A stretch of 64,000 nt of DNA from Symbiodinium natans (Eukaryota > Sar > Dinophyceae > Suessiales > Symbiodiniaceae), in contig CAJNDS010002202.1 of NCBI GenBank assembly GCA_905221605.1, positions 331,501 to 395,500 on the forward strand, in the 5' to 3' direction. This document shows positions 34,524 to 35,843 of this stretch, piece after piece. The stretch's first letter is position 1. Each line of letters starts with the position of its first letter. Both the position numbers and the translations under genes were made by a program. The notes below the pieces were generated by a model. The model was not told the DNA's origin and ran no database searches. It saw nothing but the letters and a program-made list of their open reading frames with translations.

Positions 34524-35843
34524 TCATTGTAACAAGCGTGCCACGTCCATGTGGCCGTTCCGAGCTGCAATGATAAGTGGTGTGGCTCCATCTGTTTTGG
34601 CCAGGTCCTTGTCCGCACCTTTTTCCAGCAACAAACGTGCCACTTCCAAGTGGCCGTTCTGAGCTGCGATGAAAAGCGGCGTGGCTCCATTTGCTAAAGC
34701 CAGGTCCTTGTCCGCACCTAACTCCATCAACAAGCGTGCCACTTCCAAGTGGCCGTTCTGAGCTGCGATGAAAAGTGGCGTGGCTCCACCTGCTTTGGAC
34801 AGGTCCTTGTCTGCACCAAACTCCAGCAACAAACGTGCCACCTCCACATGGCCGGTCTGAGCTACAATGAAAAGTGGCGTGGCTCCACTTGTTAAGGCCT
34901 GGTCCTTGTTCGCGCCAAACTCCAGCAGCAAACGTGCCAGTTCTACTTGGCCGTTCCGAGCTGCGATGATAAGTGGCGTGGTTCCATTAGCTAAGGCCAG
35001 GTCCTTGTGCGCACCAAACTCCAGCAACAAGCCTGCCACTTCCAAGTGGCCGTTCTGAGCTGCGATGAAAAGCGGCGTGGCTCCACCTGCTGTGGCCAGG
35101 TCCTTGTCCGCACCAAGCTCTAGCCTTACTTCTCCAATGACCAAGGGGAAAAAAGGATAAACTTTAATATTCCTACTATATAAGCAAACCCAAAAAGTTT
35201 AAAGTTCAACTAAAGGCGAAGTAAGTAGCAACAAACGTACCACCTCCAAGTGCCCGTTCTTAGCCGCGATGAAAAGTGGCGTGGCCCCATCAGAAGTCGC
35301 CAGGTCCTTGTCCGCACCAAAGTCCAACAACAAGCGTGCCACTTCCAACTGGCCTCTCAGAGCTGCGAAGAACAGTGGCGTGATTCCGTGGTCTTCAGTT
35401 TGGTTGGTTGCCGCACCAGCTTCAAGGAGCAACTTTGCAAAGACTTGCCTGCCATACGTCGCCGCAACATGTAAGGCCGTCATGTTGTGCTGCGCCGTTC
35501 GGTTTGGATCTTGGGGTCGCTGCAAGATTGCTTCTACTTGTGTTGCATCGTCTGCTTCCACTGCATAGAGCAGCCTGTCAACATCATCGCCAGAGGTCTC
35601 GGCAAAGTCCAGAATGACAAGGTGCAATCGGCAAGGTGCTTCCAGAACCGCATCTTCGGGCAAAATCTGCTCGTCTTCTTGCAGGAGCCGCTGTCGAAAC
35701 CGGGGATACCCACAGAGCCTTTGGAGATGGAGCTTTAGGGCGTGCACGTGGCCCGTGGCAGTGTCGCCGGTAATACTCAGCAACTCCTCCGGCTCCAGGC
35801 AAGCCACCTCTTCCCCAGTCATCATCATCTGAATCCGCAACAT
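34524..35843 (-). CDS. ANK4: ubiquitin-like + ankyrin-repeat protein, two exons
   Basis: Exon 1 runs from the ATG at 35843 down to 35230 (614 bp) and exon 2 from 35124 down to 34524 (601 bp). Joining them gives 1215 bp, or 404 residues plus TGA, practically the length of ANK1 and ANK2. The join restores a perfect ankyrin helix (VVRLLLELGADKDLA) in phase. The N-terminal beta-grasp domain is more diverged than in the other copies (GYPRFRQRLL), and nine ankyrin repeats follow, three before and six after the intron. Without splicing, exon 1 would read through into a short unrelated tail and stop at 35199, so the alternative is a pseudogene broken by an insertion. An upstream in-frame ATG (35870) would add MTSRVKVAA. 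I favour a spliced gene because the interruption has intron-like ends and excises cleanly. Confidence 0.75.
35125..35229 (-). mobile_element. Introner-like 101-bp insertion acting as an intron in ANK4
   Basis: On the plus strand the insert reads TAGC, then CTTACTTCTCC ... GGCGAAGTAAG, then TAGC again. The ends are 11-bp terminal inverted repeats with one mismatch (35125-35135 and 35215-35225), and TAGC at 35121-35124 and 35226-35229 is a 4-bp target-site duplication. On the coding strand, removing 35229 down to 35125 leaves one copy of GCTA and restores the ankyrin frame; the removed piece starts GC and ends AG, an accepted dinoflagellate splice pair. The interior is AT-rich and contains a second inverted pair (AACTTTAA / TTAAAGTT). 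ANK1, ANK2 and ANK3 have no interruption at any such position. Introners with inverted repeats are known from dinoflagellates and Amoebophrya, so the class is known; this copy and family are not identified. Confidence 0.7.

Follow-up and report, generated by a model that had tools for sequence, protein, structure and literature searches.

A MITE-like introner as a probable newly gained intron in one of four ankyrin-repeat paralogues of Symbiodinium natans

The origin of new introns has been debated for decades. Here we report that ANK4, one of four ankyrin-repeat paralogues in the 64,000-nucleotide window (the whole stretch of Symbiodinium natans DNA that was analysed), carries a 101-bp insert that we read, with a probability of roughly 0.88 and on the evidence of sequence comparisons, as a MITE-like introner that landed in an ANK4 exon after the split of this gene from ANK1-ANK3 and is removed as a GC-AG intron. 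The features of ANK4, its insert and its paralogues to which we refer throughout are as follows.

34524..35843, minus strand: ANK4, ankyrin-repeat gene of 404 codons plus stop, in two exons around a predicted intron
35125..35225, minus strand: introner/MITE-like element of 101 bp, on the gene strand CTTACTTCGCC ... GGAGAAGTAAG
35121..35124, no strand: target site duplication TAGC, the copy staying in the exon after the predicted intron (gene strand)
35226..35229, no strand: target site duplication TAGC (gene strand GCTA), the putative source of the GC 5' splice donor
35125..35229, minus strand: predicted GC-AG intron of 105 bp, the element plus one TAGC, presumed to be spliced
35125..35135, minus strand: terminal inverted repeat ending in the predicted AG acceptor, gene strand GGAGAAGTAAG
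35215..35225, minus strand: terminal inverted repeat at the donor end, gene strand CTTACTTCGCC
35143..35158, minus strand: pyrimidine tract before the acceptor, gene strand ATCCTTTTTTCCCCTT, also in the family consensus
25132..26343, minus strand: ANK1, uninterrupted paralogue
28385..29596, minus strand: ANK2, uninterrupted paralogue
30842..32506, minus strand: ANK3, longer paralogue, open across the site

A preliminary description of this DNA had claimed a 101-bp insert with 11-bp terminal inverted repeats and a flanking TAGC duplication, and we recovered both the insert (35125-35225) and the two TAGC copies (35121-35124 and 35226-35229). The terminal inverted repeats were also present, but they are imperfect: the element ends, CTTACTTCTCC and, from the opposite end, CTTACTTCGCC, match at 10/11 bases, of which the outer 8 are exact. 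An automated inverted-repeat scan with a seed of 9 reported none for the element because the exact outer arm is only 8 bp long. As had been described, computed removal of 105 bp (the element plus one TAGC) yields an uninterrupted ankyrin frame of 404 residues, the removed piece beginning with GC and ending with AG. A Pfam Ank repeat at residues 185-215 of the excised ANK4 spans the junction at residue 204, and retention of the insert leads to a stop after 10 codons. The fold energy of the insert was not better than that of shuffled sequences on either strand (z -0.08 and -0.50), and a stem-loop mechanism was rejected on this basis; a structured RNA was rejected on the grounds that no Rfam family was found in the window at threshold. 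The telomere-like motifs CCCTAAA and TTTAGGG occur 507 and 746 times in the window (1-64000), where about 4 copies of each are expected, and form many short arrays.

In our favoured reading, a non-autonomous DNA transposon, presumably mobilised by a transposase acting from elsewhere, would have inserted into an ANK4 exon once this gene had diverged from ANK1-ANK3, duplicating the 4-bp target TAGC in the process. On the gene strand the element would supply the pyrimidine tract and, within its terminal repeat, the AG acceptor, and the GC donor would come from the upstream duplication copy, GCTA. The spliceosome could then remove the element together with one copy of the duplication and, as this amounts to exactly 105 bases, the protein would be unchanged. 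We consider that the insert is probably spliced out of ANK4 in this manner as a new intron.

The insert belongs to a family that is dispersed in the genome. A search of 759 Mb in 2543 contigs for the exact 11-base paired ends, set 60-90 bases apart, found 232 places, and the reversed control found 0. Copies for closer study, all of them chosen by their ends, were the window copy and 88 of 100 listed places; the other 12 of the 100 were left out, some as near neighbours or near-duplicates, and the further 132 of the 232 places, among them the window's own, lay outside that listing. Matching 4-bp flanks were present in 73 of these 89 copies (~0.35 are expected at 1 in 256) and absent in 16, and exactly 4 flanking bases matched in 60 of the first 69 copies examined. 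The duplication sequences varied among the 73 copies. At the target sites of these 73 copies, A/T is preferred at the third duplication base, C two bases before the duplication and G two bases after it. Distances to the family consensus across the 89 copies had a median of 4% and a maximum of 23%, and the ANK4 element differs from it at 4/101 bases. The family thus has what is expected of MITEs, or non-autonomous DNA transposons with terminal inverted repeats (short, non-coding, with terminal inverted repeats and duplications of fixed length), and also what is expected of introners, namely many similar insertions with similarity up to the splice boundaries (232 places, with at least four other copies in conserved coding sequence). 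When scored by open frames, as opposed to gene annotation, only part of the copies lie in long open frames. No viral contig carried the exact paired ends, and a viral carrier was rejected.

Conserved proteins interrupted by other copies provide the strongest evidence that these elements may serve as introns. Twelve excised frames, chosen by length, were read, and seven of these (all but L074, L066, L027, L062 and L059) were scanned against Pfam. In three, a domain runs across the junction: Helicase_C at residues 42-158 of L090 (junction after 107), PPR_2 at residues 90-137 of L044 (after 116) and the C-terminal domain of a gamma-tubulin complex protein at residues 10-121 of L038 (after 74). 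The scan found no domain in the other four (L039, L014, L015 and L089). A protein search with L039 found seven relatives, five of which were aligned (the two weakest were left out): four of them span the junction and all align across it with no gap, and the remaining one is an identical (100%) fragment starting downstream of the junction. The L039 matches from S. natans have 62-67% identity. The L014 site is uninterrupted in its relative L015, where the alignment has no gap (37% identity over 124 residues); L014 and L015 were also considered as reciprocal cases, and this was rejected as the frame of L015 is open for only 3 codons before its insert, leaving only the L014 site to count fully. 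Exonic insertions removable in frame at the sequence level were thus found in ANK4, L090, L044, L038 and L039, and in 8/8 coding candidates inspected the kept insert brought in-frame stops. The donor would be GC in ANK4, L038, L039 and L044, GA in L014 and L090, and GT in none of these six. At L044:2125-2347, a short distance past the full copy within the PPR frame, the element also has several partial matches that overlap one another.

Read along the gene strand, the element closes with a pyrimidine tract and then AG, and the duplication is located where a donor is required. If spliced copies take their donor from the duplication, then genic copies should have duplications that start with GC, GA or GT, and in this orientation only. 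Such donor-like starts were present in the ANK4 orientation in 24 of the 73 copies with duplications, and the sense open frames of these 24 were longer than those of the other 49 (p=1.6e-5) and also longer than those of the 30 of the 49 without a T start (p=6.4e-5). The mirror test in the opposite orientation compared 16 with 57 copies and gave p=0.20. The same 24 copies exceeded the remaining 49 in antisense frame length as well (p=2.4e-6), so the frame-length signal is in part due to gene-like DNA and not to strand. Fairly long sense frames also occur without a donor-like start (L066, AAAA, 507 nt; L022, ACTA, 387 nt; L018, AAAA, 384 nt). Across all 232 places, a count that includes places without a matching duplication, GC, GA or GT opens the donor-side flank at 68 in the ANK4 orientation versus 41 in the other, with 15 shared; starts exclusive to one orientation number 53 and 26, respectively (p=0.003), and GC starts 19 and 6. 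Overall, the donor pattern expected of genic copies in this orientation only is broadly what was seen.

The direction of the change can be judged from the paralogues. Among 52 listed N-anchored genome matches to ANK4, at least 43, including ANK1-ANK3, pass the insertion site, 38 of them without a stop and 5 holding stops; the list scored 103 of 1799 candidates, and the passing count is a lower bound. Consistent with the earlier statement that ANK4 alone is interrupted, ANK1, ANK2 and ANK3 are all open across the site and, among the matches listed, only that of ANK4 itself ends at the site (residue 207); for the eight others that stop short of passing or soon after it, the last residue is 114, 144, 146 or 216. 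A large ankyrin family related to ANK4, with long uninterrupted frames, is present in the genome. Protein matches that carry an organism name come mostly from Symbiodiniaceae, and those to ANK1 have 35-47% identity (among 120 listed of 5888). A near-identical ANK4 elsewhere, such as an empty or spliced allele, was not found among 120 listed of 3980 matches, the best-covered of which has 77% identity. Comparison of the ANK4 flanks with regions near other ankyrin genes gave patchy matches only, and a whole-block DNA duplication is not supported. The opposite course of events, in which the intron is old and has disappeared from ANK1-ANK3 and the rest of the paralogues, for instance through retroposition of mature mRNA, would not be without precedent, as retroposed genes are known in dinoflagellates and a 21-base motif, which we take to be the dinoflagellate spliced leader, has 205 exact copies in the genome and 0 when read backwards, which marks the host as a dinoflagellate. 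However, it would have to account for the at least 43 listed matches that run past the site, for an element that is closer to its family consensus (4/101 bases) than ANK4 is to ANK1-ANK3 (11% differences over 450 bases; 10-11 of 61-63 fourfold sites) and for nearest scored relatives of the element that are 97-98% identical, and we regard it as very improbable. A single gain amid about forty uninterrupted relatives in one genome suggests which way the change went, and the comparison supports gain in ANK4 as opposed to loss elsewhere.

A less remote but still unlikely alternative is that the insert is a plain MITE insertion without intron function, which would make ANK4 a pseudogene or a null allele, perhaps a recent one, in an expanded family. 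The genome indeed holds many ANK paralogues, and 5 of the 43 listed matches that pass the site hold stops; moreover, 49 of the 73 duplicated copies have no donor-like start in the ANK4 orientation, so the family also occupies sites that are not spliceable in this way. Against a plain insertion stand the GC start, the right orientation and the otherwise intact frame of ANK4, the continuation of conserved sequence through other copies once the element and 4 bases are removed, and the excess of donor-like flanks in one orientation. These comparisons support the reading put forward in the preliminary description, in which an introner recently created the intron and the duplication provided its GC donor.

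The ANK4 element shares its contig with its nearest scored relatives, which are outside the window.

C1890:472994, 501580 and 505032 (outside the window): three relatives with the highest scored identity to the ANK4 element

With 40 of 1510 candidates scored, these relatives are 97-98% identical to the ANK4 element and lie 106-138 kb away; in the same scored set, a fourth relative on the contig has 95% identity and those on other contigs have at most 96%. These places coincide with no ankyrin match among those listed, and for that reason the relatives there do not look like gene copies. Such proximity of close relatives hints at recent local hopping. A broader proposal, to which we give somewhat less than even odds, is that the family is still moving and makes introns in one orientation only, bringing the tract and the AG itself while its donor is left to a 4-bp duplication of nearly any sequence, that the host spliceosome readily accepts GC and GA starts, that 18-29% of its insertions in the right orientation would be spliceable on arrival, and that the cluster of nearest relatives reflects recent local hopping.

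Introner elements have been described in genes of Symbiodiniaceae, Polarella or Prorocentrum (PMC10522408, PMC10666404), and a review reports recently active introners in four of five dinoflagellates and GC/GA-AG boundaries at 25-74% in Symbiodiniaceae (PMC11453091). A prior description of the present family by sequence was considered and rejected: among the matches listed, the literature with the terminal-repeat strings is, by title, not on introners. By description, the ANK4 case has recent gain in common with the introner-driven intron gain in several dinoflagellates attributed to Roy et al. 2023, as cited in PMC11453091. The introner elements of Amoebophrya (Farhat et al. 2021, PMC7789003) are described as bearing an inverted repeat at each end of the intron and direct repeats of 3-5 nt across its boundaries, and terminal inverted repeats and boundary direct repeats are common to these and to the ANK4 element; however, as described there, the Amoebophrya elements were defined among non-canonical introns and a hairpin was proposed for them, whereas the predicted ANK4 intron is GC-AG and its fold is no better than that of shuffled sequences. 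The closest likeness, in described architecture as opposed to sequence, is with the introners of Symbiodinium microadriaticum (Gozashti et al. 2022, PMC9860276), which according to the Fig. 2B legend have 4-bp duplications, a 3' splice site within their inverted repeats and a 5' site from the duplication. The ANK4 element has this same architecture, with its use of the splice sites being predicted here, and the general premise of the preliminary description, that introners with inverted repeats make introns in dinoflagellates, agrees with that report. The mechanism is therefore not new, having already been published for Symbiodinium (PMC9860276). The present case adds a gain that can be compared with about forty paralogues lacking the insert, a bias in the orientation of donor-like flanks and a hint of local hopping. 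The family also offers a natural splice-donor experiment, in which one sequence stands beside many different 4-bp duplications, inside and outside genes. Unlike the account drawn from PMC9860276, the present case places one gain against many uninterrupted paralogues within a single genome.
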